Of a stretch of 64,000 nt of DNA, positions 29,022-53,980 are shown piece after piece. The position numbers and the translations under genes are program-made. The DNA lies in assembly GCA_013368315.1 (NCBI GenBank), contig JAACJM010000025.1, positions 124,001-188,000 of the forward strand. Direction: 5' to 3'. Each line of letters begins with the position of its first letter. Position 1 is the first letter of the stretch. Under the pieces are notes generated by a model. The model had not been told where the DNA came from, searched no databases, and was given only the letters and a program-made list of their open reading frames with translations. Origin of the DNA: Tetrapyrgos nigripes (lineage: Eukaryota; Basidiomycota; Agaricomycetes; Agaricales; Campanellaceae).

Positions 29022-29625
29022 TGTTGAAGTATAATCAAGCCACCGTGGATAGGGGCTAACGTGTAGACGTGCTACGGTTACTTACAGCTACTTATCTCTT
29101 TGTCTCTTTCTCCTTTTCATGGAACATGTGTACACTAGTATATATACCTGTAGATACCCTTAGGACACCTCTGTCTTCGCTATTACAGACAGAGGTGAGC
29201 CACTTACTTTACCATTAGACTCGGACATTTACTCACATACCTAGATTCATATTTCTCTTTCTTCTACACTGGGTGCAAACACTTGTAATTCCTTGGATAT
29301 ACTGAGGAATTACAAGAGACTTACTCAGGTACACTCAATATGTAACTCCATTGGACTTACTGAAGTATTACAAGAGACCAAAAACATTAAAACAATTATG
29401 TATGACCATTGTAAGGTGCAAAGATCTCTTGTAATACTTCAGTAAGTCCAATGGACTTACATATTGAGTGTACCTGAGTAAGTCTCTTGTAATTCCTCAG
29501 TATATTCAAGGAATTACAAGTGTTTGCACCCAGTGCTATCTAGGTACTTACTCTTTACTCAGTCTTTGCTATTACAGACAGAGATTCATATTTCTCTTTC
29601 TTCTGTCTAGGATTGGATTCTAACA
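29022..29625 (+). repeat. Probable LTR, interrupted by a foldback MITE
   Basis: It runs from TGTTGAAGTATAATC to GATTCTAACA, follows the polypurine tract and C-terminal tail of the fragment above, and contains a TATATATACC promoter near 29139. A duplicated CTATTACAGACAGAG segment lies on each side of the MITE at 29267-29535. Confidence 0.55.
29267..29535. mobile_element. Foldback MITE (269 bp), CACTG termini
   Basis: Two arms of about 110 bp are near-perfect inverted copies around a short loop (about 29380-29415). The ends are CACTGGGTGCAAAC and its complement, flanked by a 3-bp CTA duplication (29264-29266 and 29536-29538). CACTG ends with a 3-bp duplication fit the EnSpm/CACTA superfamily. 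There is no coding capacity. Confidence 0.85.
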
Positions 29626-34700: not shown

Positions 34701-35520
34701 CATGGTCCCATGGTTTACGATCTGGCAACACATCGAAGGAGTCCTTGGAAAAGACATCTGTATAGTCATAGAAGTGATCAGGAAGGCCATCATGAGGGTT
34801 CCTTGAGGCCTTAGCATGTGCTTCTGCTAGACGTTGAGAAGTGGTACTCGTCGCATTGATGAATTCCGACTCTGGAGGGACTGAGGCAACAAATATGCAA
34901 TCACCTTCTTCGATAGGGACATCATCAGGGAAGTCATCACAACCTAAAGTTCTGATGCTATTCATCTTATCTTCGCCAGGATCTAGTTCAAGGACATGAG
35001 GAGTTGGGCCTTCTCGACAATGTTCTAGAGCACAGCGTTGGCGACGAGTAGTGGAGAGGAGTAGTTGGCGTTCCTGTTGCACTTTGTCATGACATGTGGA
35101 GCATTGCCTTGGGCACTGGCTAAGTTTGACATCACCATTGTCCCAATCTACCTCTGGGTTATGGGCTCATAACCATCCATAACCAAGAATGATGTTCTTG
35201 GCTGCCAAGCTGAGTAACTGCAAGTTGGATGCACTCAGAGTGGTCTTTGAAGCGTAGGACAGTATCCAAGATTTCGGTAATAGCCCCAGCCTCATTCAGG
35301 GTGCCGTCAACATTGAAGACGGGAATGGGCTGTTGGAGTTTCTGAGTTGGGATGGAGTTCTTGGTGATGAACTCAGCATTGGCATAACCCATGCTGGTAG
35401 CTCCACTATCGATGAGCACACTGCCAGAGATCAGAGAGGCATTAGATGTGGACTCTAGCTCTACTGGAACTGTCAGGCAGCGGCTTCTGTCGGAGGAGAT
35501 TACCAGCTTGCGAGGTAGGC
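31762..35520 (-). pseudogene. Ty3/gypsy chromovirus pol (protease, RT, RNase H, integrase, chromodomain)
   Basis: Minus-strand order: protease (LIDSGATS, about 35420), RT (35082-33730, with KKKDGSLRLVQDY), RNase H ([15 protein letters not shown] region, [10 protein letters not shown]), integrase ([35 protein letters not shown]) and chromodomain (QYLVRWKGYGPQNDSWE). The RT catalytic motif is VYLDNILIY, so the second Asp of YxDD is Asn. Stops include a TAG at 33730 and TGAs at the CM-TGA-TKT, DFM-TGA-ELC, LSR-TGA-PDH and ISG-TGA-KPD positions, plus a frameshift between protease and RT. Gag is absent; the 5' part ends at the LTR of the large element at 35634. It is dead by several criteria. Confidence 0.9.
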
Positions 35521-35633
35521 GACGTTCCTAATGTTTGAGGCGGTGCCAAGGAACTGGATGATGAACAGAAGAAATGGAAGAGGGAGTAGAGGGGGTAGGA
35601 GGAGACACGACTGAGGCAATTACTTCACACGTT

Positions 35634-37066
35634 AATAGGCTGGCTAGTGGATAATGCTAATAGCTTCGAAGATCGAAGCTAACAACACCAAAAACACACA
35701 AACACCAATCCTGCTATATAATGCGAGGTGATCCAAAGTGGCAGAACACTCGTATAACTTGTGTAGCTTAAAGGTAAACGGCTCTAGAACCGATTGGGGA
35801 ACAATAGGGGTTCAACAATAACAATGGTCACAATTGACAGTCTTCTTGACTTCGAGATAAACACAATAAGAGGCCAATTGCCTAGATCTTCAATAACACA
35901 ATGAGGCCAATATGCCTAAGTTCAATAAACACAATATGGGGCCAATATGCCAATGCAATCACAACAATCTTTGTCTTAGGGTGAACTAATGTTCGAGTCT
36001 TTAAAGTTTTGGGTTTTTGTAGAAATTCCTATTGATATAAAGCTGGCCTGGGCAAGCGAGAGACCTAATCTTCTCTCGAGAGTTATCCAGAATCCGCAGC
36101 AATACACGCGAGTACTAATCTGGTTTTCTAGCTACGAGTACTTCGTCCTTTTATACTCTAGAGGTCCTAGAACTGTACGGTAGCTAATATTATTTAAAGT
36201 CCGCAATATTATATAGTGAAACACGAGAGATTGAATGAAAGTAACTAAGGAGAGAGATACGCGAACAGTATTTACATGAATCGTCCAATCAGAATATGTA
36301 CAGAGTCCTCGCGAGAGGGCCAGGGTATATGTAGCACATGCTAGCTTCTTGGTAATGGAGGTCTAGAGCGGTACTCGTACCGGTAACCTCATTGGGTATC
36401 ACATGCGAACCTCTTCCAATGCTCGCGAGCGGTCTTTCATAGGTTCCGATATCTCCATCCCTACTAGAGTCCTCTAGAGGGCCTCAGTAAGTCTCTAGAT
36501 CCATCGGAACTATCTTCTTTGGTGTCTTTAGGAGGGGTGAGGTAGATCTTGATCATTTGGCAACATCACGACGATCTTAGCTTTAGCTTGAGTAGATCTA
36601 ACCAGGTTCGCGAACTATCGGAATGTCTCCGGGATACTTCGCGAAGGCACCTATCCGAGGTTTCTCCTTGTTATCATTCATCTCCTTTAGTCTTGTATCT
36701 TATCTTCTTGAGTCTATGTCACATTGGTAATCCCATGGATCGTGAATAGAGGTAACGCGTACTTATACTGCTCGCGAGGTGGCTACTCGTGAACAAGTGC
36801 CTTGGGTATGTATGTATAAACGTATACAAGCAGTCTAGTACTCGAACATCGAACTTAGTAGCTTGAGGGACTTATGTACCATCCTCTCGAGGCTACTTAT
36901 CCTTATTTCGTATCGCGCTCGCGAACGTTGCCTCTAGAATCACTTTAACTGATAGATTGGGCTCGCTTCAGTCCTTATTCCCTAGTAAACAGACACAATA
37001 TATCCGTATACTTGATATATGTACGCTTTTTAACTCGTTCTAGTCGAGTTTTTGGCAGGCGTATCA
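35634..37066 (-). repeat. 3' LTR of the large element
   Basis: About 1.43 kb, beginning TGATACGCCTGCC on the minus strand right after the polypurine tract and ending GCCTATT. It differs from the 5' LTR at about twenty positions by eye (about 98.6% identity), most of them transitions. Confidence 0.9.
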
Positions 37067-37082
37067 TCTCCCCCCAACTAAA
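37065..37082 (-). promoter_or_regulatory. Polypurine tract of the large element
   Basis: On the minus strand TTTAGTTGGGGGGAGATG runs into the 3' LTR start TGATAC. It defines where plus-strand DNA synthesis would be primed. The same 18-mer recurs at 40852-40869. Confidence 0.8.
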
Positions 37083-37605
37083 AGAGTTGACCGTCCTCGG
37101 TCAAGCATTCGCGTGGTATAAGCAAAGAGTCGTGAGGTAAAGTTCAGACCAGAAATCAGTCTTGACACACATTCAAGACTCTGCTTCGCGAAGCCACAAA
37201 CTCTACTTATTTTGGGTCTCGAGTTGAGTTCACTCGAGGAGTATAGACATATGGGGACTCGTTCTTGATAGATATCGACCTCTAGAATCCGAATTCATAA
37301 AGGGGATAACCCCAGGACTTGTGCTTTGTCGCTCTCTAGACCGGAGACAGTCCTTGGTTAAGTCCGTAACCGATATGACGTTGTTTCATTCAATACCGGT
37401 TTCCAAAATTAGAAATGCGGCGTTCTTGTATGAGTTCCCGCTTCTGAATGAGCATAGAGTTCATTTAAGCTTCGAATCATGCTTTGGTTGAAGTTCGCGT
37501 GTATATAAAACTTCAACCAACGCCAAATATTTACAAGTCCCTTCTTTTCATCCAACCACCACTTCTTTTAGTTCTCGCCACCTCTCCAGAGTGCATATAT
37601 CAACA

Positions 37606-40464
37606 ATGCCTTCCACCTTTGAACCCAGACTCATCAATCCCAAGAACGATGCCAACCTTCAACGCTGCGAATTACTTCGCGTAATGTTGGTACAGGCGGA
37701 CACCCGTGAGGACGAGATGGTCAGTGCTTCGCGAGAGGAGCAGGACAGTTTTCGGAAACTGTTTCCTTTCTTGGTGCGTCTTCTTATATTCTTCTCTCGG
37801 TTCTTGATCATCCTAATCCCTTAGCTAGCGCCACCTCCAGTATTCTGTAGAGGTTTGCGGTGACCAGACTCCCAAACGTCTCAGGGGTCTTTACGCGAAA
37901 GCCTGCGCGTCTGTGGACTCTTTCTGGGAGACCGCAGCTGCTCGTGCCAAGGTAGAGCTCGACTGGGCAATCGAGGCCTCGGAGGCTTCTCGTCGTCTTC
38001 GGGAGGACTTCCCGGTGAGTCTAGATATTTCTTTATGTCTTATGCCTTTTGTGAACTAACGTTTTCTTCTTTTTGTACCAGGATTTCTCTTTGGAGGCTG
38101 CATTTAAGCCTAGAAATCTGAAAGTACGTGTTTTAGTTCTCTTTTGCTATTCCTTACTGATTTTCCTTTCTTTTTAGAATGAGCCGACATTTCTGGATGA
38201 GCCTACTTCGGACTCGAGGCTCACAAGTAGTTCCCGTCCAGCTCGCGAGGGTGCTCCTGCCACGAAACCGGCTCAAACGGTTACCAAGGCTTCTACCTCG
38301 AAGGAAGTTGCAGTGCCTGGTACCTTGGTACCTACACCTCCTCACTTCCTTCCTATCACACCGGCTCCCATCAAGCCAGTGGTAGTGGTTCCGCCTTCGC
38401 GTGCTATGCGTAAGCGCAAGGAACTGTCTGGAGATAGCGAGCCCCCGGCTAAAGCTCATAAGACCGATACCTCCGTAAGTTCTAATACTTCTTTTCTTAT
38501 TTGATCTTTCTTTTTACTGACTATATCTTCATTAATAGAAATCTGTGAAGGCTAGGCCCATTCCCAAGCCTAAATCCATCTTGAAAACTCTTTCCACCAG
38601 TTCTTCTCGCAGGACCCAGTCCCAAACGTTGCCCCCAGTCTCCGATGATGATATGGATGATGGTGACGACGTGTTACCGCTGCTCGCGAAGCCTTCCCGG
38701 TCTGGTCAGAAGATTGTGAAGGATACTCCAGCTTCGAAACGGGCAAAGACTCCGGTGGTAGAGGAAGAAGAGGAAGAAGAGGAAGAAGAGGAGGTGGTGG
38801 TCAAGCCAAAGTCGGCGAAGGCGAAAGGCAAGGCCAAGGCAGTTGTTGTCGAGGAGGAGGCAGAGGAGGACCACGATGGGCATCTCCCTAGTGGTGTCCC
38901 ATTCGATTTCGAGTATGGGACCGATCCTATTTCCGAAGTCTTTGCCTCTGCCAAGGGTCTCACCGACTTCGATGTTAAGAAGTACGGGTACAAGGTATGT
39001 TTTTCCTTTCTTTTCCCTTCGTGAACACCTTGCTGACCTGCCTTTCCCGTCTAGAGCGAGTATACTTTCGGAAATCAGCATAAGGCCATTTATACGCTGA
39101 CTCCCGGTATGTATTTCGTTCTTTTCTTTTCCTTCATCTTACAGTTCTTTCTTGTATTTTCTAGAAGCTGCGAAGGCCAACATTCGGGTCGGTTATGGTA
39201 CGCGAGTACCTATAACGTCAACCTGGATACTTGGCTTCGTGCCAATGCCAACTTCTGCCATGTAAGTTGCTCTTCTTATTGCGTTTCTGTCTTTTCTTAT
39301 TCTAATCTTATTTCTTAGTCGTCCAACACCTGTTTCCGGTGTATGGAACGGATGGACCATACTTGCGACGTGCAGGGTGTCCAGAGCGTTGGATCTGACG
39401 GTACGGTGCACATTGCTAAATGCCAGTGCTGCCAGAAGGTGGGTCAGATGTGTTCCAACACGTTTGACACTGTTAAGGCGCTCCTGCTCAAGGACATGGC
39501 GAGTTACTTCGCACGTAACAGCCCGCATCGTGAGTCTTTCTTTTCTTTGTCTTTTTATCTCTTACTTACTTTTATTCTTTCTTTAGAGGTACAGACTTCG
39601 GTGTCTCGAGTCCTCGAGCTCATGCGTATTCGGTCAGCTACTCAGGCTCAGGCCAACGGTCTTCGTGCGACCGTCTTAGAGCTAGACGAGATGATCGCCT
39701 TTGAGCAGGCGAAGATGCGCGAACAGGCTCGCGACCCTGCTTTTATCATGGAGATCTTGGCTAGAGGAGAAGGAGGTAGGCTGGAGGTGACCAGCGAGCG
39801 TCTTCAGCAGCTCGCAGTGGTCGGCGGCTGGGAAGTCGATACCCTGGCCGAACCCAACACCCTTATCCGAGATGAGGTCACTGGGGCTTTCTCCGTGGTC
39901 CCCTCGTCTTCTCTTGGTTCACCACTTCGGGCTTCGCGCATAGCTTCTACGCCTCTTGCTTTGCCCCCTCTCCCGGATCCTTCCTTCGCTGACCTCATGG
40001 TCACCTCTCCGTCGTCGAGTCATATTGCTGGACCTTCCCGTCCTCGAGTTGGTGACGTTGTTAGTCAAGACGACGAGGTTTCCGAGGGTGATGCGGCTTC
40101 GCGAGCGGGTTCTGGAGTTGATACTCCTCCCCAGACTCCTGCTGCTACCGTTACCACTCCGGATTCTACGCCACCTCGCACGAAGAAGTCCACCCCTTCA
40201 AAATCTTCGTCTGGAGTCTCGACCAAGTCTCCCACATTCTCGAGGAAGAAGAAGGAGGCGATGCAGCAGATCGCATTGGCTGGTGAGAGGGACCAAGGAA
40301 CGGAGGAGGATGAGGAAACCGCTTCCCCAGTGTCCACGCGTAGCCGTTCGCGTCGTCACGAAGGTTCTCCTCCGGCTCGTTCCCGTTCGCGTAATGCGCT
40401 GTCTCCCAAGGTCACTTTCAGTGAACCCATCTCTTCCTTCTCCAACAATGAGGACGAAGTTTGA
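37606..40464 (+). CDS. Antisense gene A of the large element: Zn-cluster, basic/acidic nuclear-type protein
   Basis: This gene lies opposite to gag-pol. It has about nine exons with canonical short introns; the first exons are 37606-37773, about 37830-38011, 38082-38123 and 38178-38480. All joins I tested keep phase, and no internal stop is found. The start MPSTFEPRLINPKND follows a TATATAAAAC at about 37501. The protein has a Pro/Ser/Lys-rich middle with a run of glutamates (about 38760-38795). A double cysteine cluster follows near 39320-39450 (CFRCMERMDHTC and CQCCQKVGQMC: C-x2-C-x7-C-x18-C-x2-C-x6-C), then a coiled coil (RSATQAQANGLRATVLELDE) and a Ser/Arg-rich tail. The spacing resembles an expanded Zn2Cys6 cluster, so DNA or RNA binding is my inference. 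I do not know the family. Confidence 0.75.
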
Positions 40465-41055
40465 AGCATGTAAGTCCTTGATATTCTTCTTTTATTTTCT
40501 TCTAACTATTCTTTTATAGTCATCTTACTTTATCTGCATACTTTTCTTGTCACTCGAACGACTTCGCGTAGTATTACTACTTATACCTGTCGCTTCTGAG
40601 TTGTATCACTACTATCCTGCTTGTTTTCTTGCTGTCTGGTTGCTTTCTGTACATAGATGCACTGAATAAATCGATCTTGTACCTTCTTTCTTTTGTGTGT
40701 TTTTAAGATCTAAGTCAATCTTAAGATTCTTCAGGGTTGTAATACTGGTGCTATAGTAGTTGAAATGAGGCATGGTGTTACCCTGATGTACACATGGAGA
40801 AAATCGAAATTTTTCTGATTATTCCGGATCTTTGTGTTATCTTGACACCACCATCTCCCCCCAACTAAATTGAATCATTGTCCCGATGATAGCGGTATCG
40901 TGAGGCTCCCTGGCCGAGGTTCGCGAACACACTTTATGTGGTCATCTCCCTAGCTCTCAGGTTCGCGAAGGCTATAAAAAAGGGCATTCAAACTCGCACT
41001 TTCTTTCCAACCGTCTTCTTATTACTCAGAGCTTCATATCCGTCGCTCTTTTGCT
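40465..41055 (+). promoter_or_regulatory. 3' UTR of gene A and promoter of gene B
   Basis: The interval contains a second copy of the 18-mer CATCTCCCCCCAACTAAA (40852-40869), two TTCGCGAA-type motifs (near 40921 and 40962) and a TATA-like GCTATAAAAAAGG (about 40970-40983), about 75 bp before the gene B start. Confidence 0.5.
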
Positions 41056-42318
41056 ATGTCCCAAAACTCAAAAACTTCTGAACTGTTCGATGCTTCCAGC
41101 TGGAGGGACCGAGCAGCTTTTCTCGAGAGCAACCTCGCTGGATCCCTCAAGTTTGGTAAGGAGAAGGATCAACGCGCTGCTGTTATTGCGTTCGGAGATC
41201 ATTTGGTGAGTGGTATCAAATACACTCGTTCTTCTTTATTGACTTGTCTTACGTCGCAGGCCCTTCCCAGCGATCCGGTTACCTTCAAAAAGGATGCTGA
41301 GTCGGTGAAGGTCATGGTGGACGGTCTCAAGACCATTGAGAACACTACCAAGGCCAATCCGATGGGGGCCTTACATTGTGTGAACAGTGTTAGGCAATTC
41401 CTTGCGTTAATGGGACATGGTCCTCCTCTTCCTGAGGATAAGGATCGTCCCGCGAAACGGAACACTAGGGTATTCTTCTTTTCTTAGCTTCACGTAGAGC
41501 TGTTGCTAATGCCTTCTTTAGTCTAGGCAGATTATCACCGATGATGATATCGAGGATGTCACTGGCGATGTTGAGGTAAGTCTAGAGAGCATGTTCGCGT
41601 CTGGTCCCTTTTACCGAGTTTGTTCACCCAGATGGTTGAACCTGGTATCAAGGCCTCTGTTCATGCTCCCCCTAAGGCTAAGCTTGCGAAGATTCCTAAG
41701 AACTCAGCTAGTTCCGTGAGTACTGTTCACATTTCATTCTTCTTTTATACTTAGTATCCGGACTCTTTATAGACACCTTCCCGAGCCAGTGCGACCCCTG
41801 CTAGGGCTACTACGGTGTGTATTCCCTATCACATGGTGCCTGGTGTCGATACGACATCTCGCGAATACAGAAAAGCTAATTTCTATATTGCTAAGTCGGA
41901 TACCGCTCGTCGAGGACGAATTGGAGGTACCTCTTCCAACTTTAACCCGCTAACTTCAGGTGTGTGTTAAGCCTGTTGCCTTCGCGAAGGTTGAACTGAC
42001 TTTGCATACGCAGAACAAGAGAAGCTTCTCGCCGTCGACCCTTCCGAGCTTTTGCAGGATGTCAACCTGCTTCCTTTCGTGGTTTTCGACGAACTCCCTC
42101 CTGAGGTTCTTAACGCTATCAAGAACTTTCTTGCGAACGAAATCCTTTCTGTTTGCCACCAAATCCAGTTCCACATGCAGTCCTATCAGAGTTTACACTC
42201 GTCTTACCAGGAGGTCGTTCGCGTACATTTGGCGCGTACTCAACTCGAGGATTCTGTTGTTCGCGAATCTGATTCGCCAGCGGACAAGGTTGCGAGTGGT
42301 AGTGGAGCGAAGGCGTAG
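41056..42318 (+). CDS. Antisense gene B of the large element, unknown function
   Basis: The start is MSQNSKTSELFDASSWRDRA. Exons join in phase through about six short introns: 41056-41205, then a block from 41260, small exons near 41529-41575, 41632-41716 and 41772-41813 with a continuation to about 41961, and a last exon about 42014-42318. No nonsense codon occurs. The N-terminal part is helical (VKVMVDGLKTIENTTKANP), the middle is basic and Pro/Ala-rich, and the C-terminus is a helical region (LPPEVLNAIKNFLANEI, QSYQSLHSSYQEVVR). I recognise no domain. Its location between gene A and the 3' end of pol, and its TCGCGA motifs, tie it to the element rather than to the host. Accessory antisense frames in this position are known in plant Tat-lineage Ty3 elements (Grande, RIRE2); whether these are related is unknown. 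Confidence 0.7.
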
Positions 42319-42555
42319 TTCTTTCGTTATGCAACTTTAACCCGTTAGATGGGTCTTCTTCGGTCTTTACACTGGTCTTGGTACTTCGTCCTAGGTATAC
42401 TTGTCTTCACGAAGTAGTAGTTATTGCAATACATGCCTAGTACTTCATTTCTTTTTGGGTGAACTAAGTAACACAACGTCTACGCGACTCAGGCTTTCGA
42501 TTTTGAGTAATGTCGCCAACGGAGGTACAACCATATGTCACTGCCTTTGTGTTTA

Positions 42556-42750
42556 TAGGTGCTGATGGTGTAGTGGTAACACAGCTGTGACATGAGGCTC
42601 ATACTTCAATCACAGCAATCCCTGGTTCGAATCCGGGTTAGCTCTGGCTTCCCTCGCCCCAGGTATTGTGGAAGTTGGCCTGTTGTGCAGCGTGTAGCTG
42701 GCATCCGGTCTACAACACATTACCTGGGGCAGGGAAGTCTATTTTTTTTT
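42556..42750 (+). mobile_element. tRNA-derived SINE-like sequence
   Basis: The head has an A box TGGTGTAGTGG and a perfect B box GGTTCGAATCC (about 42612-42622), with D-arm GTGT/ACAC and T-arm CCTGG/CCGGG pairings. The acceptor stem has a mismatch, the anticodon loop lacks U33 and is extended by an intron-like insert, so a working tRNA is unlikely. The body forms a long imperfect hairpin (TCGCCCCAGGTATTGTGG with its partner near 42720) and ends in nine T. It lies between the convergent ends of gene B and pol. Confidence 0.5.
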
Positions 42751-42759
42751 AGACTTTCC

Positions 42760-44196
42760 CTACTTGGTGACATTCTGTGCCCTTCTTTGAGCACGCGTGC
42801 GTACTCCGACTTCTTCATCCAGGTTTTCTTCTTCTGGTTCAACCTCGCATGGTTCTTCCTGCGCAGTTGAAGGTTCAAGCTCAACTAATTCGTCGTTGTC
42901 GTCAAACTGTGGAACTCAAAGGTTAGGAATAGCATCAAATATATAATCCCTATCAGGTGTCCAATCCTCATCTCGAAGTTCTTCTTCCTGTACCATTTTA
43001 TTTAGTTGTTCAGGACTCAGATCTATTAGAGAGTGGATATTCTCTGGTAACTCTATCAGTTTATATCTAGCTTTGTGGGGAAGTAGGCGGAAGGCTGCTA
43101 CCTTCTCGCGAAGTACTGATCCATCCATTTCTGCTAGTATATACGCACCACCACGCGTCCTACGAATGACTATCATTGGACCTAAGTATCTAGGATACAT
43201 CTTCCGGTCTAGATTCTTTTCAATTCACGTATTGCGTAGTTGTACTAGAGTTCCAGGTTTGAAATCCCAATCTTTGATTACATGTCTGTATTCCCTCTCG
43301 AATCTTCTTAATTCTCTTCTTTTGTGTTCGTCTACGCGGGCTATCATATCTTCTATATGTACACGATGTTTAGCTAAAGCTTGAGCTCGATAACCAACTA
43401 ACTCTTCTGTAGTAAGCACGCGATTTGGTAGTTTTACCAACCACGTAGACTCAACTATGTCTAGAGGTAGTATCGGTTCAGCTCCTAGTGTTATGAAGTA
43501 AGGTGAACAATCAAGCCCCTTTCTTACTGTCACTCGATCTGACCAAAGTACAGGTTTCAAGAACCAGTACCACTTCGCTAGATCCCCACCAGTTGCTTTC
43601 ACTAGAGCTTGTCTTATGTCAAAGTGTGCCCTTTCGATGATACCATTTGCCTGCGAGTTGTAGGCAGAAATGGTTATACCCCTGATACCATACTTAGTTT
43701 CTAACCACTTAAGTACTGCTATCATTTGAGGTGCATTATCCGTCACTATCTCTTCTGGACAACCCCATCTGCAAATAATGTCTTCGAAGAGCCAATCAGC
43801 GATACCTTTTGCGTTGTCTTGTCGTAAGGCTTGTGCTTCTGACCATCTAGACAAAGCACATCTACCATGTACTACATGTTTACAGCCATTACTAGCTGGA
43901 GATACTTTGAAGACGTCTACATGAACTTTTTGGAATAGAGAAGGTGTATATGTTACAGTAGGAGGTATCCTTACATGTTGTAGCAGTCGATCTTGGCACG
44001 TCTGACAAGAGGATACAAACCAGTTGACATCCTTCTCAAGCTCAGGCCACCAGAATCGCTTCTCGAGCATAGCTGTGGTTGCGTAGACACCTTTATGACC
44101 AAGGTGGTCATGCGCAGCTTGCATCATATACATTCTCTTTCCTTGTGGTGCGACTAGAAGGGGTTGATTCCCCCCAACCGGACTTTTCCTGTAGAG
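42760..44196 (-). pseudogene. Integrase region of the large element
   Basis: The zinc-binding part reads AAHDHLGHKG and CQTCQ (HHCC). The core carries DVFKV, TDNAPQM and NGIIERAH as the D-D-E catalytic set, with DNAPQ instead of the usual DRGSQ. The C-terminal part (PRYLGPMIVIRRTRGGAYIL) resembles the integrase GPY/F region, followed by an acidic tail ending in a TAG at 42760. In-frame TGAs at 44197, 43225 and 42916 interrupt the region; each reads as Arg in context. There is no chromodomain. The frame is the same as that of RNase H. Confidence 0.85.
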
Positions 44197-46724
44197 TCAT
44201 CCTTCAGTATCTACGAAGAACTTTGATAGTAGCTTCTCGAACTGTTGTCTTTTCTTCTTTGTTTTCCATCTTCGTTCCGTAGGATCTATTAGATATTCTT
44301 TAATATCTAAAAGTAAGCCATCCATCTCTTTTGCAGCTGAAGACCTATGTGTTTCACTATAGGGATGCTTCGTGACATGTTCTTCCGTAGTTTCAGGCAG
44401 CAGGGTTGTCTGCGTGGACTGAGCTACAGTAGCTAGAGAGAGATGCTGTACTTCATCTGTTCTTCTCTTGATCATTCTTTCTTCATCTAGAACTTCTTGA
44501 ATGTCATCTTCGATTTCTTCGAAGCTTCTAGCTACTTGATTCAAGTATCCTCCTCTATTATCAATAGACTTTTTGAAATCCTCGAAGTCGAAGGTGTCAT
44601 CGTCATTCTCATCATACTTCATGAAGGGAATGGGTGCACCATCGTCAACATCCATCAGTTCTTCTTCAGAGGGCAGTGTACGACGCTGCGAACTTATTGT
44701 GGGAGGTCTTCGCGAGAGGCCATCAGCCAACGCGTGACTTGTTCCTTTGACATGAATGAGCTCGAAGTGATACTTTCTAACATCCTCAATCCACCTATTA
44801 ATTGTAGCATTCGGACCACAACTAGGGTTGTCAAGCATGCCTTTGATATAGCTCGCATCGGTATATACTTTCAGTTTCCTACATCCATAAGTCGTATAAT
44901 ACGAATCTTCGAGTGCTAGCTTCAAACCATACAACTCTCGTTTAGGTTGAGAGAATCTAGCTTCCCTCTCGTTAAGAGTTATTGAACCAAAGTAAATGTA
45001 GTTCTTCTTCTTAGGATCGTGAGGATCAACCTGGTACAAGTAATAACCGACAGCCATATAGGAAGTATCTACTCCCACACAAATTCCTTCTTTATCATCG
45101 TAATTCACTGCTCGTAGTGGTGGGGCTATCACGAGCGCAACCTTACTTTATCAAAGGCGCTCTGCTGCTCTGGACCCCAAGTCCATGGGACTTTTCCCGT
45201 AAGCTTGTTTAACGCCGCTGTTATCTTTGCGTAGTCTCTAACAAACATTCGCAGCTGACCCGATGTCCCTAGGAAACTTCTTAGTTCGGGTAGATTTAAA
45301 GGTGTAGGCCATGATATCAAGGTCTCCAACTTTTTAGGATCTATCTCGCGTCCTTCATAAGAGCATAAGTGTCCTACCACAGTAGCTTGTGGTACACACA
45401 AGAAACTCTTCTTGCCTGAGAACATTCCTCCAGCATAGGTCAGTCGTTGAACGATCCTATTTAAGCCTTGGAAGTGTTCCCAAACGAATTTTCTTATGCC
45501 TGGGTTCTCTGGTATAGTCTCGTAGCCGCCTCCAGTTAACTCGTACCTAGTAGGTGGTCCTCGAACAGGTACATCGTCAATATAAGGTATAGTTAGATGA
45601 GGTATCTCATCCTTGAAGATGTGGGTAACATCATCATGGAATATTGGGACCGAATTCGTCCAACCCATAGGTAGCTTGACAAGTCTATGCAATCCAAAGG
45701 GTGTTTGGAACGCTGTCATGTCTCGCGACTCAGGAGCGAGATACCTGTGATCATAACCAACAAATATATCGAATAGCCCTAGACAAGAGGCACCCATGAA
45801 GTTCCTAGCAACATCAGCAGTGGCAGGTGGAATACCTGCATGCTGAATAGTTACTTTGTTCAAGGGCTCTAGACTATGTACAATTCGAACCTTGCCATCT
45901 TTCTTAAGTACGCAGAACCATCTACCCCTGTATGAACCATTCGAGGGTTCATAAGTACCAGCTGCAATCTTTTCGCGAATGAGGTCGTAGACCTCTTTAT
46001 GCTTGCCAGGAGTAACTGGAATAGGTCTTTCGTTCCAGGGAACATGTGGAGCTGTAGGAATACGAATTGGAGGGAAGAATTCTCGTTTGAAGTTCCCTGC
46101 TTCGCTAGTCTGCCACGCGAAGCCTGGTTCGTGTTTCAACATGAAATCATGCAACAGTTTTCGTTCCTCTGGTTGTAGAAATCCTTCCAGATGGTTCGCG
46201 TCTATGATTTCTTTACGTTCGAGAGTGTACCTTTCACCAGGCACAAACTTGGGCGGGTTGGGATTAAGTACTGGCATACCTTCGAGAGGGTTGCCAGTGA
46301 TGTCCCTAGTGATTCTGAATTCTTCAGGTAAGGTATCTTTGACCGGTCGAACCTTTATAGCGACTGACTTATACTTACCATATACTTCTACCACTCCGGC
46401 GTCAAAACGCGAGGTTCCTTCTGTCTGTGAGACTCCTCGCGCAGGGAACTCATCTATTCCGACTCGATGTAGAGTATATGAACTCGCATCACCACTTTGT
46501 CTTTCTTGTAAAAGACTTTGTAGCAATTGCGCTGCTTTAGTGTCTGTCTTCTCGATGTGAGCCATGCTCGCGTACGTGTACGACTCACATATTTCTTCTT
46601 TTCTGAACGTTCGATCCTTCTCTGGCACTGAATATCCATCAATTAGGATATCACCATTCTCGTCAAAATGAAAACTTATGGCCACCTCTCCCTCTTGATT
46701 CAAGAGTTCATCGAGGTCCGAAGA
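44197..46724 (-). pseudogene. Reverse transcriptase and RNase H of the large element
   Basis: The RT frame (-1 relative to protease) opens after the slippery heptamer at 46730-46724. It contains RGRWFCVLKKDGKVRIVHSL, FQTPFGLHRLVKLPMGWTNS and the catalytic IPYIDDVPV with both aspartates intact. The RT frame ends in TGA at 45129 next to a one-base shift; RNase H continues in the next frame (GICVGVDTSYMAVGYYLY, LKVYTDASYIKG). I see no slippery site at this second junction, so it is probably a mutation. The RT is divergent from the chromovirus copies elsewhere in the window. Confidence 0.85.
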
Positions 46725-48099
46725 AAATTTGTTTCTCGAGATGCGCTATCTTTCTCTTCAGGTTCAGCAGATTCAGACCTAGTCTTCTTCTCTTCATTCG
46801 AGGCTGTATCAGGCTCGACTACAGAGGTAGTAGGTACATTCTGCTTCCTGAGGGCCGCTACAGGAGATCCTCCTCGAGGATATGTTCCCATACAACATCT
46901 TCTACCGGAGTTGGGGTCAGTTAGCGTAATAACTTGACCTCCATCTACGTCGTTGTTGATTTGCATTCCACAAAGAACATCAAAGGGTCTCCCTATAAGA
47001 ACTTCATAAGGGGTATCATCTATGATGTGAATCTGAAGATAAATCAAAATCTCTCCAAAAACTACAGGTACATTCTTCGTGAGGCCTCGCGTGGGGTTAA
47101 GATCACCATTAGCACTTTGCATATGGATCACAATGTCAGGATCCCAATGTAAGTCCAATTTCACGGCAACATCACTGTTCATGGATATGATTTGAGAACC
47201 ACTATCCATTACACACTCTACTTGTCGTTTACCGTTGATCTTGGGGCAGGTTACTCTCAACATCTCGCTAGGGCGACTTGCTAGAACAAACTTCTTATCC
47301 CTGTCCTCGCGAGGTCTATCCTTTAAGAACTGTTCGACAGGATCTCGATGGACTAACTCTCAACTATTAATGAGGACTTCATAAGTATAGCTGCTCATGT
47401 CTTCAACGTTAAAGTATTGTACTTCCTCAGGTTGAGACGCTGGCATAGACTTCATACTTATGGCAGGACCTTTCTTCACATGTGCAGCCATTTTTGACGG
47501 TTTCATAGCTAGGTTCCTTACCTTGCGAGCAAGAATCCTTCGCACTGATGGGGAAACAGATAATATCTCTCGAGCAGTAAGGTTTAGTTCTCCTCTAAGA
47601 ATCTTTTCCGCTATCCCTTCATCACCAGCGCTCTTATGATGAGCCATTTTGGTATCTAGTTCTTCTTTCACGATCAAATCTGCTACACTGACCCATTCCT
47701 CTTCTTCCTCTATAAATGCTCTCGATGAACGTTTGGGTATTGCAGGACGAATCGTGTTTGTTATCCTGTCCTGGTTTATGGGTATAAGTCTATCAAAAGG
47801 TCTTCCTAGCGGTAGAGCAGGTCGAACAGTTGTAGTAGGTTTGGTCACTTTTGTTTCTTCTTGATTCTTGTTGCTTCGCGAGTCTTCATTTCTTGGTCTC
47901 GAAGCATCTTCTGTCTCTTTATCTTTCCTCTCTCTTACTTGCGGTGGTTGGTATACTTCTCTGTTCTTCTTTGACAGAACAGGGATTACTACAGATGGAA
48001 CGGGTGGGAGTCGAATTCGTTTCTCCTCAGGGGCCTTTTTGTTCACAACGAGAACTGATTGAGTCGTTGTAGGCCCGATCATCAGAGTCTTCAGTTTCC
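46700..48099 (-). pseudogene. Pro frame of the large element (linker plus aspartic protease)
   Basis: This frame is -1 relative to gag and begins at the gag slippery site. A long Lys/Glu/Pro-rich linker (PPQVRERKDKETEDASRPRN) precedes the retropepsin domain, which carries CVMDSGSQIISMN and the conserved YEVLIGRPFDVL near its end. An in-frame TGA at 47362-47360 lies between linker and protease. The frame overlaps the RT frame and closes at TGA 46702-46700, 22 bases after the second slippery heptamer. Confidence 0.8.
46724..46730 (-). promoter_or_regulatory. Candidate -1 ribosomal frameshift site, pro to pol
   Basis: In the protease frame the codons read ACA AAT TTT, giving A AAU UUU. A -1 slip enters the RT frame exactly. 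A small hairpin CTCTTG-AAT-CAAGAG lies 17 nt downstream. Confidence 0.65.
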
Positions 48100-49611
48100 C
48101 GGCCCTTCTGAAGTACTATGCGAGTTGACTGTAGTATTGTAGATGCTCAACTCATCCCTTCGCGTAGCCTCTAGGGCTTCCATTCTTTCTCCTAACTGAC
48201 TATTTGACGTGGTAACCTTCGTCATAAAGCCATTCAGAGTCTCCATAAGATCATTAACAGAGTAATCCATTGGTTTAGCATATGCATCCTCATACTCTTC
48301 TTCCGTCATAAACATGACTGCCTTAGTGATGGCCACATCCCATCCACGAGCTTTGGCAATCCTCTCGACTTTCACAGCGTGAGACTCTCTATCATCTCCT
48401 AGTGGAGCAGGTGTACCATCTTTGAGGACAAACTTTCCAGTGTTAGAATCCTTGCGAATCCATTTCCTCATGTTGATGTACTCGTCCTGTATAGGACAAT
48501 CTTGAACACCATGCTCGGGGGACCCACAAAAATAACACTTAAAGTCTCTAGAACGAGGTTCGAAACGATGCCTGTCTTGATGATTACTGTTATACCCACC
48601 AGAGCCTATAGCTCTAGGGGTACTCCCTTGATTGTTCACGAGAGCCTTTGCTAAGCTAGCTAGAACTCCGCTAGACAAATGGGTATTCAGCTCCTTCAAG
48701 GTAGCTTCATTCTTGTCCATGGTTGCTAGAAGTCGACTACTTAATTCGTCTCCTTCTAGTTTGATACCTGTCCTATTGGCAGGATAAGTAATGGTTCGAG
48801 AGCTTTCTCCTACAGTCACTTTAGCACTTGGCTGCGACCAACTCAAAGGGTTCAGCGAAGCTCTTCCTCCTAATTGCTCAGGATTAGTAGCTCCCATGGT
48901 CAAGGGGTTCATTCCTAGACCAAATGCTGTGGCCAATTGAAAGCTCGCTGTATATATAGCCACTTCGTAAATGGTGTCTATAGGGTAAGGATCTTCAATC
49001 CTTCTCTTCTCGCTAGGTCTCGGCATAACGGTTCGCATGGACATTATGAACTCGTCCGCGAATGCCATCATGTAGAGGGCAACTGCTTCTGCATTCGAGA
49101 GAATGGGTTCATCACCCATAAGCTTGTTTGCCTCAAGCTTGAACTCACGAGTGAACTTTAGGACCTTCTCGCGTTGCCCTAATGGAATCAGTCGATACTT
49201 GTTCACTATGTCGCGAAGTCGTATCAGACTTCCTTTCCCATTATCTACGGACTCCGGATAGCAGTCTTTCAGCTTCTCGGTGAATTTCTCGTAGTCTCCT
49301 TTACATTCCACTGCCAAGTCATAGTGTAACTTCTTGGTTTTGTACTCCATGTACTTAACAGCAATGAGGATCTTTGTGTCAGCCTCCGTAACCTTTCTAT
49401 TCTGGAATAGTTCTTCCAGTTCGTCTAGGAACTTCATTAGGTCTGGCGCACGATCGACAGTAAAGTAAGGACCATCTTTTCACTTGGGCAGCTTATCGTC
49501 TTGTACTTGTCTCAAGACTTCATTAGTCACTTTGAAGTTCGGAATTGTCGTATTATTCAATCCAACTTCCTCCTCTCCTGCTGGTTCAGATTGAGCTCTT
49601 TGACCTGACAT
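48091..49611 (-). pseudogene. Gag of the large element
   Basis: The first ATG of the frame is at 49611 (MSGQRAQSEPAGEEE), although the frame is open upstream to about 49980 without an ATG. A TGA at 49482-49480 (K-TGA-K) interrupts it after 50 codons; relatives would have Arg or similar. The main part is a helical capsid-like region (LMGDEPILSNAEAVALYMMA) followed by a CCHC zinc knuckle CYFCGSPEHGVQDC near 48540-48500. The frame ends exactly at a G-GGA-AAC heptamer followed by UGA (48100-48091). Confidence 0.85.
48094..48100 (-). promoter_or_regulatory. Candidate -1 ribosomal frameshift site, gag to pro
   Basis: In the gag frame the codons read CCG GGA AAC UGA, giving the X-XXY-YYZ heptamer G GGA AAC directly before the stop. 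A -1 slip enters the pro frame exactly. From 17 nt downstream a two-part stem can form: GGGCCT with AGGCCC and ACAACGA with TCGTTGT. Confidence 0.75.
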
Positions 49612-50112
49612 GGTAGAGGGTGAATCTGGTTGAAGGAGTGCGAAATCTAAGTCTATCGAGGGTGATAACGAAGATAAACTTTCTTGTTCTTGTTCTTCTA
49701 CTTCTTGAAGGTTCGCAGACGTACTAGGTTCAGTAGCCTGACTTGGAACTGGTTCAAGAGATAAACTTTCAATAGAGCTGTTCGCTCGTCGTCTTCTGGA
49801 GACAAGCTGCGTTCGTGGAGGGTTCTTTGGATAAGGTTGAAAGATAGGTGAAGACGTAGCCGGTTCTGGTTCAGGAACTCGCTCTAGTCTTTGTACTGTC
49901 TTTCTTTTTGATGGATTCGTCCAATGGCCACTGTTAAGCTTATCTGTTGGGATAATCTTGCCGGATAACTACTTCGCGTAATCCAAAACGTAGCAGTAAT
50001 ACTTCGCGATCCAAAGTATCACCAAGGTGGTTGAAGCGCGTTGCTTCTTTTATAGTTCTTGAGCTTGTAAGCTTAAGTTATATGGATACCCCCTCGCAGT
50101 GGGCTCCAATAT

Positions 50113-51548
50113 AATAGGCTGGCTAGTGGATAATGCTAATAGCTTCGAAGATCGAAGCTAACAACACCAAAAACACACAAACACCAATCCTGCTATATAA
50201 TGCGAGGTGATCCAAAGTGGCAGAACACTCGTATAAATTGTGTAGCTTAAAGGTAAATGGCTCTAGAACCGATTGGGGAACAATAGGGGGTTCAACAATA
50301 ACAATGGTCACAATTGACAGTCTTCTTGACTTCGAGATAAACACAATAAGAGGCCAATTGCCTAGATCTTCAATAACACAATGAGGCCAATATGCCTAAG
50401 TTCAATAAACACAATATGGGGCCAATATGCCAATGCAATCACAACAATCTTTGTCTTAGGGTGAACTAATGTTCGAGTCTTTAAAGTTTTGGGTTTTTGT
50501 AGAAATTCCTATTGATATAAAGCTGGCCTGGGCAAGTGAGAGACCTAATCTTCTCTCGAGAGTTATCCAGAATCCGCAGCAATACACGCGAGTACTAATC
50601 TGCTTTTCTAGCTACGAGTACTTCGTCCTTTTATACTCTAGAGGTCCTAGAACTGTACAGTAGCTAATATTATTTAAAGTCCGCAATATTATATAGTGAA
50701 ACACGAGAGATTGAATGAAAGTAACTAAGGAGAGAGATACGCGAACAGTATTTACATGAATCGTCCAATCAGAATATGTACAGAGTCCTCGCGAGAGGGC
50801 CAGGGTATATGTAGCACATGCTAGCTTCTTGGTAATGGAGGTCTAGAGCGGTACTCGTACCGGTAACCTCATTGGGTATCACATGTGAACCTCTTCCAAT
50901 GCTCGCGAGCAGTCTTTCATAGGTTCCGATATCTCCATCCCTACTAGAGTCCTCTAGAGGGCCTCAGTAAGTCTCTAGATCCGTCGGAACTATCTTCTTT
51001 TGGTGTCTTTTAGGAGGGGTGAGGTAGATCTTGATCATTTGGCAGCATCACGACGATCTTAGCTTTAGCTTGAGTAGATCTAACCAGGTTCGCGAACTAT
51101 CGGAATGTCTCCAGGATACTTCGTGAAGGCACCTATCCGAGGTTTCTCCTTGTTATCATTCATCTCTTTTAGTCTTGTATCTTATCTTCTTGAGTCTATG
51201 TCACATTGGTAATCCCATGGATCGTGAATAGAGGTAACGCGTACTTATACTGCTCGCGAGGTGGCTACTTGTGAACAAGTGCCTTGGGTATGTACATATA
51301 AACGTATACGAGCAGTCTAGTACTCGAACATCGAACTTAGTAGCTTGAGGGACTTATGTACCATCCTCTCGAGGCTACTTATCCTTATTTCGTATCGCGC
51401 TCGCGAACGTTGCCTCTAGAATCACTTTAACTGATAGATTGGGCTCGCTTCAGTCCTTATTCCCTAGTAAACAGACACAATATATCCGTATACTTGATAT
51501 ATGTACGCTTTTTAACTCGTTCTAGTCGAGTTTTTGGCAGGTGTATCA
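50113..51548 (-). repeat. 5' LTR of the large element
   Basis: About 1.43 kb, beginning TGATACACCTGCC on the minus strand. It is followed within four bases by the primer-binding-site-like sequence starting TGGAGCCC. A 64-codon frame occurs in both LTR copies (35989-36183, 50469-50663) and is probably fortuitous. Confidence 0.9.
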
Positions 51549-53980
51549 CCGTTAACCCCTGACTTACGGATATCGCCCCAGTCAGATTCCTTATTTCCTG
51601 ATTTTATCCATGAACCCTCCTCATCACAATCTCTCCAGTTGGGGAGTATCACCTCATACCACTTCTCAAAATCCTCCAAGTACTTATTGATGTCCAAGTT
51701 GTGTGGTCCCCAAACCTCTGATTGGGCTCGCTGAATCCAGTCACCTACAACTACAGGGCGAAGTCTGGCAGCCGAGAGTTTTGTCTCCGCGTAGTTCTCA
51801 TCATACTCAAAGATGAGGTAACGGCGTAGTAATGTCACCCAAGCCAGCTCACCCACGAGGGTCCTGAGCATCCTGTGGGCTGAATGTAACCAAAGAGGTG
51901 CATGACGCTCTGGACATACTGGAGCTGATTGATCCTCAACACGGAGTTTGTCAATGTGGACATTGGGAATGGGGGGATTAGCTTGGGCCGTAGTATGTTC
52001 TTTTTCTACGAATAAAGTAAAAAAATGTTAGTACTTAATTTTTTAAGGACTGATGAAGTACTTACCATTAGCCGAGTTACCATTTCTCCTGTCTCTTCGA
52101 GTTGAATTACGTGGATTGATACAGTCGATGTGGACAGCTGTAGTATCTTCCTTGTCTGCACATGAAATAAATGTTAGTACTCAGAAATTCAAGCAGTGGT
52201 GAAAGCACTCACCGTCAACTGAATTTCCCTTGCCTTTTCCCTTACTGCCTTGAGTAGATTTACGTGGTTTCTTGCCAGGTTTTGTTGATGCTGTGTCGTC
52301 ATTGCTTACACGAGGGCGCTTTTGACCTATATCCCCTTCAGACCTAGACTCCGTGCTATCTTGGGTAATAGTGGGAATGGGAACAGTGATGGAACCTGGA
52401 GACATAGGGGTAGGTGTCCCACCCTGGGATGGAATAGGAGATGGCGGATTAGAAGGAGGTGGAGATATGGTGGCTGGATGATCAGGAGCAGATTTGGACT
52501 GAGGTGTAGATGTCGAGACTGGTTCCAAATACGGATCCGATGAGACGGGTTGAGAAACAGGTTGAGAAGTCGTTGTAGACGAGTTTGTGGAAGAAGGAGT
52601 TGATGTACTAGATTCAGTCGATGATGGTGTCCCTGGTTCAGCAGACTGTTTTGCAATGGTCCCATCATCGACATTGTAAACCTCCAAGTCGTGGTTCATC
52701 TGGACCAAGTTTTTCAGGGTTGCAGCATCCACAGTGTCTAGAGCTCGTGAGCAACATTTATGTTAGCATAGTTACATACAATTTGATAATAAATCTATAT
52801 TTACTGTAACACTGCTTAAGATAGTCACTGAATACAGGCAAGACCTTTGCCTTATACTCCGTGCGCATCATGGATCCAAATGTTCGGCTCTTCAAAGGCC
52901 CGATCGCTGTCTCCGAATGAATGCTAGATACACAAGATTTGTCAATTAGACATACACAGAGCTAATGACAACCTACCTGATAATATTCAGATGGCCTGCA
53001 TCTGCAGGTTCAGGTCCACCTGCAATCACAGTGATTTGAAAGCCTGTTGCTTCACTGCATGCAGCAACAATTGGGAGTAGAAATCCAGCTAGGTGATTGA
53101 TCGCCCTATGCAAGATCCTATTAGTTACAATCTAATCAACGTCAAAATATCAAAACAGGACACATACATTTGTCTGTCGAATGGCGAGTCAGATACGCCG
53201 GCCATAATTTCCTCATTGTACTTCTCAAGGGCTTTGGCATGTTCTTTCTTCACCCTCTCCTCCCACATCTTCTGATCCTCCACTGATAAGCAATCCCAGT
53301 GTTTTTTGAGTACATCGTGCCATGTATTGGCCAGAAACACCTTATCGTCAAGTCTCCCGACCTTCCTGTCACGCTATATTCCGAGTTGACTTTGTCAGGA
53401 TTGTGGCACCACCAGTACTTTGAAGCAGATTGTTTCTGAGGTTTGGCGAGGGAGTCACCTGTAACTGCATGAAGGACGCGATTGAAGACATCGTCAGTGG
53501 AACTGCTCTTGCCTTTTCCTTTGGTCTTGCTCTTGGAACAGTCAGGGTTGTCTTTGTTCTGCCAACGGTATTCTAACCAGCGCCCAATTTGCTGAGTCAG
53601 GTTCATGTTAGTGTGACTATGTGAGACGTCACATAAGGTACGAGAGCACTTACCCCTTTCAGTTTGTTCTCACAATCCTTAATTTTCTTCTCCTGCATTT
53701 TGAATTCCTGGCATTCGTTGTCGGCCATAGCTTCCAGATTGGGAGTGGAATGCGAATCATTGCCTATAGACGAGTTGTCGTTGTCATTTACTCCTGCCAG
53801 TTCTTTGTCTGTTGGCTCCCAAGTGTCCTCATATTTGGGAGGAAAACGGCGTAGAAAAGCGAGAATGATCTTGTCTTGCGTTTCCTTTGAGGAGTTGTTG
53901 AGGGATGCCTGAGTGTAAGCTCCTCTTTGGGACTCGAGGAATGCGAGTCGTTTGCCTTTAAATGAGCCCGGATTAGGCAT
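51549..53980 (-). pseudogene. Repetitive Agaricomycete gene starting MPNPGSFKG, HMG-like core, truncated by the LTR element
   Basis: I recognise this as a widespread multicopy Agaricomycete family of unknown function. Its parts appear in order: MPNPGSFKGKRLAFLESQRG at 53980; a segment QIGRWLEYRWQNKD; an HMG-box-like helix (LSVEDQKMWEERVKKEHAKA, near 53290); a conserved core with IAGGPEPADAGHLNIISIHS in broken exons near 52950-53090; a long Ser/Thr/Pro linker (52732-52230); and a C-terminal part WGPHNLDINKYLEDFEKWYE ending SGVN at the LTR. A frameshift occurs near 53368-53374 (before the DRKVGRLDDK segment). The 5' LTR of the large element cuts the gene at 51549, so the C-terminus is lost. Such genes often accompany transposon-rich regions; a role in transposition is speculation. 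Confidence 0.65.

Follow-up and report, generated by a model that had tools for sequence, protein, structure and literature searches.

A probable antisense module of spliced genes and an RNA polymerase III-type RNA gene in a clade of fungal Ty3-type retrotransposons

Can a retrotransposon own genes with introns, and how would such introns be kept? The question is raised by a Ty3-type long terminal repeat (LTR) retrotransposon of 15.9 kb in the fungus Tetrapyrgos nigripes, which lies on the minus strand (51548 to 35634) of a 64,000-nucleotide (nt) stretch of contig JAACJM010000025.1 (assembly GCA_013368315.1, positions 124,001 to 188,000), referred to here as the window. The original prediction placed two multi-exon plus-strand genes, A and B, between the integrase end and the 3′ LTR of this element, and our comparison bears it out, as exons and GT-AG introns are kept across copies and homologues. 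Together with an RNA gene of RNA polymerase III (Pol III) type, which like a second polypurine-like tract goes beyond that prediction, A and B would form a module that lies antisense to gag-pol in a clade of elements and has regulatory roles. We favour this statement as a whole, with some reserve. That the element carries the spliced antisense genes A and B is nearly certain; regulatory roles for A, B and the RNA are proposed tentatively. The anatomy, the conservation, the linkage to elements and the selection that acts on B and the fold of the RNA are documented here at the level of sequence.

Copies were sought in the genome from which the window comes, 98.5 Mb in 587 contigs. There the LTR has at least 40 matches (the best 40 of 65 candidates) and pol occurs at 94% identity or more in 11 places. 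Both genes match, often in broken form, at all ten places that hold the family pol with the antisense region (C25, which is the window, C154, C4, C431, C205, C3, C22, C58, C168 and C172; parts only, not the full length, were retrieved of C205, C58 and C168). At the eleventh pol place, C213, B plus the end of A falls within the matched part. Such co-occurrence of A, B and pol had been suggested as a check on whether the element owns both genes or has trapped them from the host; together with the orientation of the B homologues described below, it gives ownership by the element good support. The hexamer TCGCGA, named earlier as a signature of the element, also held up, with 30 of its 31 occurrences in the window lying inside the element.

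Gene A (37606-40464, plus strand) has nine exons (37606-37773, 37841-38014, 38082-38123, 38178-38474, 38539-38994, 39055-39106, 39165-39261, 39319-39529 and 39587-40464). All eight introns have GT-AG ends in the window and in six of the seven other aligned copies, and C205 has two damaged sites. Relative to all seven, the window copy carries a one-base frameshift in exon 7; frame breaks of other kinds occur in C4, C431 and C205, and coding-exon indels common to several copies are multiples of three, the window's own excepted. A homologue beside a 90%-identical LTR in C200 shares 46% protein identity over the aligned part. In this alignment, for which A served as the guide and which extends over the first 640 residues of A, all eight introns fall at matching residues (one displaced by one) and in the same phase, with no frameshift and one stop. 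Seven cysteines of A are kept in the C200 homologue, including those spaced C-x2-C-x7-C-x18-C-x2-C-x6-C. To judge from these alignments, A is a real gene whose copy in the window is broken. Chance open reading frames (ORFs) were rejected as an account of A and B, since diverged homologues agree in where their introns lie and in intron phase. Searches for A returned no domain, from Pfam or from solved structures, and no public homologue, and basic stretches would place the protein in the nucleus. A was also considered as a fungal Zn2Cys6 regulator and set aside, there being no Pfam match and the spacing being only partly like the one that we take to be canonical. Between copies, the exons of A diverge more than its introns (0.029 versus 0.010 in C154, for example), which CpG loss after insertion would explain.

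Gene B (41056-42318, plus strand) has six exons (41056-41205, 41260-41469, 41522-41575, 41632-41715, 41773-41959 and 42014-42318) and is open in the window copy, with 329 amino acids. Introns 1 to 4 come from a spliced alignment, and intron 5 was placed by hand at the phase of most other families. Most families show intron-like ends at a stretch of 81 nt (41815-41895) that the protein of the Dendrothele bispora homologue lacks, so B may have 302 amino acids. This homologue from another member of the Agaricales, K435DRAFT_802207, is the only match to B among the 7994 scored (E 4e-70, 32% identity), and its own best match in the genome of the window has 65% identity. No solved-structure relative of B was found up to E 1, and Pfam gave two unrelated matches below the cut-off, so that no domain was assigned.

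The genome search for B homologues, which used an earlier model of 291 amino acids later revised from related families, found 25 loci outside the family. The integrase of the clade lies in the opposite orientation to B at 20 of these, within 3.1 kb at 19 and at 6 kb at one (C163); the other orientation occurs at 0/25. At five loci (C19:713806, C55, C31, C46 and C246) no integrase is among the matches listed, which are the best 130 of 1009 candidates; the B stretch of C46 aligns with C128 into the integrase end of C128. Seen from the integrase, a B match lies near 23 of 29 places (at least 60% identity, outside the family). Spliced models of the families with a whole B region share intron positions and phases, the exceptions being partly broken models (C29, C158, C109, C19), one intron call short in C128 and one differing phase in C10. 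Over a 78-codon stretch of 11 sequences (55 pairs, C163 left out of the count), dS is below 1 for 15 pairs, and for 14 of them the ratio of nonsynonymous to synonymous substitution rates (dN/dS) is 0.03-0.39. B is under purifying selection. C200 was used neither for B nor for the RNA gene because the retrieved stretch ends before them.

The RNA gene (42558-42750, plus strand) begins 240 nt past the stop codon of B in the window and, wherever found, follows B on the same strand, before the integrase. It consists of a tRNA-like fold with A and B boxes (42559-42644), a long hairpin (about 42646-42739) and a T run (42742-42750). Among the 11 other loci whose B-to-integrase stretch was retrieved it was found in ten (C128, C365, C46, C19, C43, C10, C29, C129, C109 and C158) and not in C163, where the stretch is interrupted; the C158 unit is without a T arm and the C109 hairpin is damaged. 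When aligned in the tRNA register, 11/11 sequences keep at least 4/5 pairs of the T stem and at least 5/7 of the acceptor stem, and the letters of the stems differ between the window, C128 and C29 groups. Folding z-scores are −6.4 for the window, −4.9 for C128, −2.65 for C29 (4/200 shuffles fold as well) and −5.85 for C10; the opposite strand of the window unit folds well too (z −4.6). An RNA model was built from eight families without the window, because the window family is offset at the acceptor stem and was mispaired by RNAalifold; C158 and C109 were left out of the alignment for the missing T arm and the damaged hairpin. Here, 94.7% of cells pair, compared with 38-46% in slid controls, and covariation is 0.221 versus 0.157 in shuffled (reached by 0/500) and 0.045-0.084 in slid alignments. 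The model recovers the window unit at 68.3 bits. The exact pattern of A and B boxes has five genomic matches, every one of them next to a B homologue, and the window unit has 11 DNA matches, all within the element's family. It is highly probable that 42558-42750 is a real structured RNA.

Rfam at gathering thresholds gave no match in 35000-52000, and no tRNA gene without introns was found in the window. With introns allowed, ARAGORN called a gene in 8 of 13 sequences of the RNA unit, with differing anticodons and odd introns where a working tRNA gene would have a stable anticodon and standard arms, so that the unit is hardly a working tRNA and this reading was rejected. The recurrence of B and the RNA gene at the same place in many related elements suggests, from position and sequence, an accessory gene set owned by the elements.

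As predicted, TATA-like boxes precede both genes, at 37502-37509 for A and at 40973-40981 for B (plus strand), and a TATA-like box also precedes A in C200. Upstream of B, 8/8 aligned families have a C-rich tract resembling the polypurine tract of the LTR, followed by TATAAAA; the palindrome between the two is clear in 6/8 and imperfect in C365 and C43. For C46, C19, C158 and C109, the promoter stretch of B is absent, replaced or unrecognised in the retrieved sequence. The polypurine tract at the 3′ LTR of the window element (37067-37083, minus strand, C-rich on the plus strand) is followed by an 18-nt palindrome (37087-37104), and the same pair stands at the LTR end in C128 and C365. The second, polypurine-like tract lies at 40854-40869 (minus strand), with a palindrome at 40875-40889. 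Further internal copies of the tract, besides that at 40854-40889, occur between B and the RNA gene in C128, C365, C43 and C19; there are up to three copies in C128 and C365, usually with a small palindrome after them. These copies may act as additional primers of the plus strand or be parts of promoters.

Another gene occupies the slot of A in two other families, C128 and C365, whose order is 3′ LTR end, polypurine tract, gene A′ (multi-exon), second tract, B, third tract, RNA gene and integrase. A′ differs from A: the tblastn search with A of C128, C365 and C29 yielded no match better than E 0.9, and a blastp match between the two (E 2e-4) in a Ser/Pro-rich stretch, obtained with the low-complexity filter off, shows nothing beyond low complexity, so that homology was rejected. 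The matches of C29 to A′ are weak (E 5e-5 and 0.009). The slot of gene A therefore looks exchangeable between families. A′ of C128 and C365 contains a SILK motif and then an RV-x-F-like motif, and A has an ILK-P part too; these presumably resemble docking motifs for protein phosphatase 1, a likeness too weak to claim.

Several observations weigh against the favoured reading. An open frame of A (795 amino acids) exists in C154 only, of eight copies aligned, and six of the 29 clade integrase places (C354, C19:767645, C68, C81, C87 and C29:593376) have no B match. Between the window and other families, dS of B is saturated or nearly so and dN/dS rises to 0.73, the value for the window and C129, a pair close to saturation. 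As to the RNA, the 11 pairs that change on both sides are reached by 36/500 shuffles, the count of further pair types is ordinary (138/500 reach it), and relatedness alone can raise the other covariation measures. The next-best match of the RNA model in the window reaches 19.4 bits (E 0.0009) in AT-rich sequence, on both strands. Finally, a subfamily of 22-kb elements has damaged A and B genes and yet five copies. These (C3, C22, C58, C168 and C172) share a deletion of about 354 bp in B and also an insertion of about 7.7 kb, which interrupts the last exon of A and is bordered on either side by the same 5 bases; an early stop in A is common to the three aligned 22-kb copies and present in C431 too. 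The insertion, examined in one copy (C172, 1122-8822 of the retrieved stretch), is an LTR element with 480-bp LTRs and pol-like frames, and has apparently been copied together with its host element to give the 22-kb elements. The copies look like five insertions because their 5′-side flanks all differ. Since the damage did not prevent spread, a need for the genes in cis is unlikely, and supply in trans or dispensability is indicated.

A simple mechanism, a consequence of the LTR replication cycle, would account for the introns. Copying uses RNA of the gag-pol strand, in which opposite-strand introns are invisible to splicing; because reverse transcription acts on this strand only, those of A and B survive each replication round. 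The mRNAs of A and B would start at their own TATA boxes, so that each copy might supply products that act on other copies. Their proteins would then work in trans, the nucleus being the likeliest place, and may regulate the element or host silencing; A would be a regulator that binds nucleic acids by means of its cysteine cluster. The RNA gene would be transcribed by Pol III and might be a decoy for, or a substrate of, the small-RNA or tRNA-processing machinery of the host; a decoy or small-RNA precursor is suggested by analogy with the TMER RNAs, as described in the available part of PMC8223928. More speculative, and rather less likely than not, is the wider proposal of a complete opposite-strand module in the clade. 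It would consist of two Pol II genes that can keep introns only by being antisense and of a Pol III tRNA-hairpin RNA that acts on host RNA silencing or processing as a counterpart of TMER or VA RNAs, with gene slots made exchangeable by the unit of tract and palindrome.

Alternatively, the RNA unit may be a tRNA-derived short interspersed element (SINE) that was inserted once in an ancestor and is decaying by descent. Its T run and its tRNA-like head, which contains A and B boxes, are indeed SINE-like, but 5/5 exact pattern matches and 11/11 DNA matches lie in elements of the clade with none dispersed (diverged copies could be missed), and the stems are kept by changes on both sides, which makes this origin most improbable. 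The unit could also end or trim the B transcript, through a cut by RNase P or tRNase Z or as a Pol III-factor boundary against read-through into gag-pol. tRNA-like folds that direct 3′-end cleavage exist in other systems, and the unit stands between B and the integrase, downstream of B on the same strand, wherever it was found. We consider trimming unlikely, as the conserved long hairpin and the T run would be superfluous for it and fit a Pol III transcript.

The genes themselves invite two other explanations. They could be host genes that an ancestral element caught and carried along passively: introns and TATA promoters are like those of host genes, five of 25 B loci are without an integrase among the matches listed (the best 130 of 1009 candidates), and the accessible part of PMC7264820 names transduction as a possible origin of such plant ORFs. 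Passive carriage is very unlikely in view of the antisense position of B to the clade integrase at 20/25 loci and none in the other orientation, the purifying selection on B between families, and the tract like the element's polypurine tract at each antisense promoter; an ancient capture later kept for use is a possible variant. Or antisense transcription itself may be what matters, by double-stranded RNA or interference with gag-pol, with coding capacity secondary. The genes converge on gag-pol, many copies are broken, and roles of this kind have been proposed for plant and animal antisense transcripts (PMC7264820, in part). However, the dN/dS of B well below 1 and the kept introns, phases and cysteines of A show selection on proteins, and we regard this explanation as decidedly unlikely.

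Genes antisense to gag-pol and owned by the element, as favoured here, have precedents. Antisense accessory genes are established in plant elements, according to the available parts of PMC7264820 and PMC11963269. There, elements of the Tat/Retand lineage (Grande with gene23, RIRE2, Retand with TRP28) are likewise of Ty3 type, with a long stretch between pol and 3′ LTR that holds antisense ORFs; gene23 of Grande has an upstream promoter, and plant antisense products are suspected to be nuclear or DNA-binding. Unlike here, introns are not mentioned, a term that occurs in neither main text, and no Pol III RNA gene figures in those parts of the two papers. TRP28 was recognised in neither gene, because A has no Pfam match and B only unrelated ones below the cut-off. 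The putative TATA boxes of A and B would agree with the antisense class aORF-3R, that of Grande and Retand.

The fungal LTR element Boty, whose brtn gene was reportedly described by Zhao in 2011, has its hosts in the Ascomycota, another phylum than that of the present host; and the mRNA of HBZ from human T-lymphotropic virus 1 (HTLV-1) is spliced. Like A and B, brtn of Boty (Botrytis cinerea, Sclerotinia) is antisense and lies between pol and 3′ LTR, with one such gene there and two here, as far as can be told from citing descriptions (PMC7264820 and PMC8365987, in part). The original prediction named no fungal precedent with two intron-rich antisense genes; since brtn had already been described as a fungal antisense gene, the novelty is limited to the pair of intron-rich genes, which looks new. 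HBZ and related genes are antisense regulatory genes of retroelements too (PMC11963269, in part); they belong to other elements and hosts, and their promoter lies in the LTR (PMC7264820, in part), whereas it is internal here.

For the RNA gene, the TMER RNAs of murine gammaherpesvirus 68 offer the same order of tRNA-like fold, hairpin and T run; they differ in belonging to an animal virus and in a triplicated A box, as against one long hairpin in a fungal retrotransposon. Helenus (TRIMp3) elements, some of which occur in Agaricomycetes, are LTR elements that contain a tRNA-like sequence of the Pol III promoter kind, but the part of PMC10886601 available places it in the LTRs of short non-coding elements. 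Membership in Helenus was rejected, since the present element has gag and pol and its tRNA-like unit is internal (42558-42750) and antisense, with a long hairpin after it. The accessible part of a fungal and plant survey (PMC2864245) notes that Tcn1-like Gypsy elements have additional ORFs to which no function is assigned, and neither "antisense" nor "additional ORF" occurs in the text seen of a survey of Laccaria elements. Literature searched by title and abstract, with most subscription journals outside its scope, yielded no recognised case of a gag-pol LTR element with two intron-bearing antisense genes or with an internal RNA gene of the tRNA-hairpin type.

If our reading is true, the accessory genes owned by some fungal LTR retrotransposons are of a kind comparable with those of complex retroviruses and comprise a structured non-coding RNA, and it is the antisense position that explains why introns can persist in a retroelement at all. 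The B family and the RNA model would give direct means of detecting such elements in other fungi and of asking whether they counteract silencing. A review of plant additional ORFs calls for a search for antisense and spliced transcripts (PMC7264820, in part).

The remainder of the element, all on the minus strand, is that of a Ty3-type (Metaviridae) retrotransposon, as judged from two LTRs, the pol order and the kinship of its reverse transcriptase with Ty3. The LTRs (3′, 35634-37066, 1433 bp; 5′, 50113-51548, 1436 bp) show 17 differences in 1433 aligned bases (98.81% identity). A probable primer-binding site (50096-50108) starts with TGG, three bases inside the 5′ LTR end. It is followed by gag (48091-49437), whose zinc knuckle (zf-CCHC) is below the Pfam cut-off, and by an ORF (47360-48082) that matches DUF4100 below the cut-off and is in one frame with the protease in C4 and C22. 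The pol domains follow in the order aspartic protease (46700-47263, gag-asp_proteas), reverse transcriptase (45129-46703), RNase H (44197-45132, RT_RNaseH) and integrase (43225-44133, Integrase_H2C2). The Pfam families just named are above their cut-offs and RVT_1 and rve below; the reverse transcriptase ORF resembles those of solved structure, Ty3 among them. The pol reading frame is broken at least once in 7/7 copies compared (the window, 42761-50112, C154, C431, C22, C172, C3 and C4).

The flanks of the window copy, ACGTT on the left and CCGTT on the right, agree in 4/5 bases and form no exact 5-bp target duplication; exact ones are present in C172, C431 and a single LTR in C289. No difference separates the 3′ flanks of C3, C22 and C172 in a comparison of 119-150 bases, or the 5′-side flanks of C154 and C431 in one of 1219 bases, so that the assembler may have reused sequence. 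The 5′-side flank of the window copy is 98.6% identical to those of C154 and C431 and hence may be a repeat. Within the window, weak matches to the RNA model on the two strands of the AT-rich place at 29284-29518 (19.4 and 18.7 bits) suggest that it is an inverted repeat. Just outside the element, minus-strand ORFs at 32968-35082 look by eye like the reverse transcriptase and integrase of another retroelement, and an ORF resembling them adjoins the LTR in C200.

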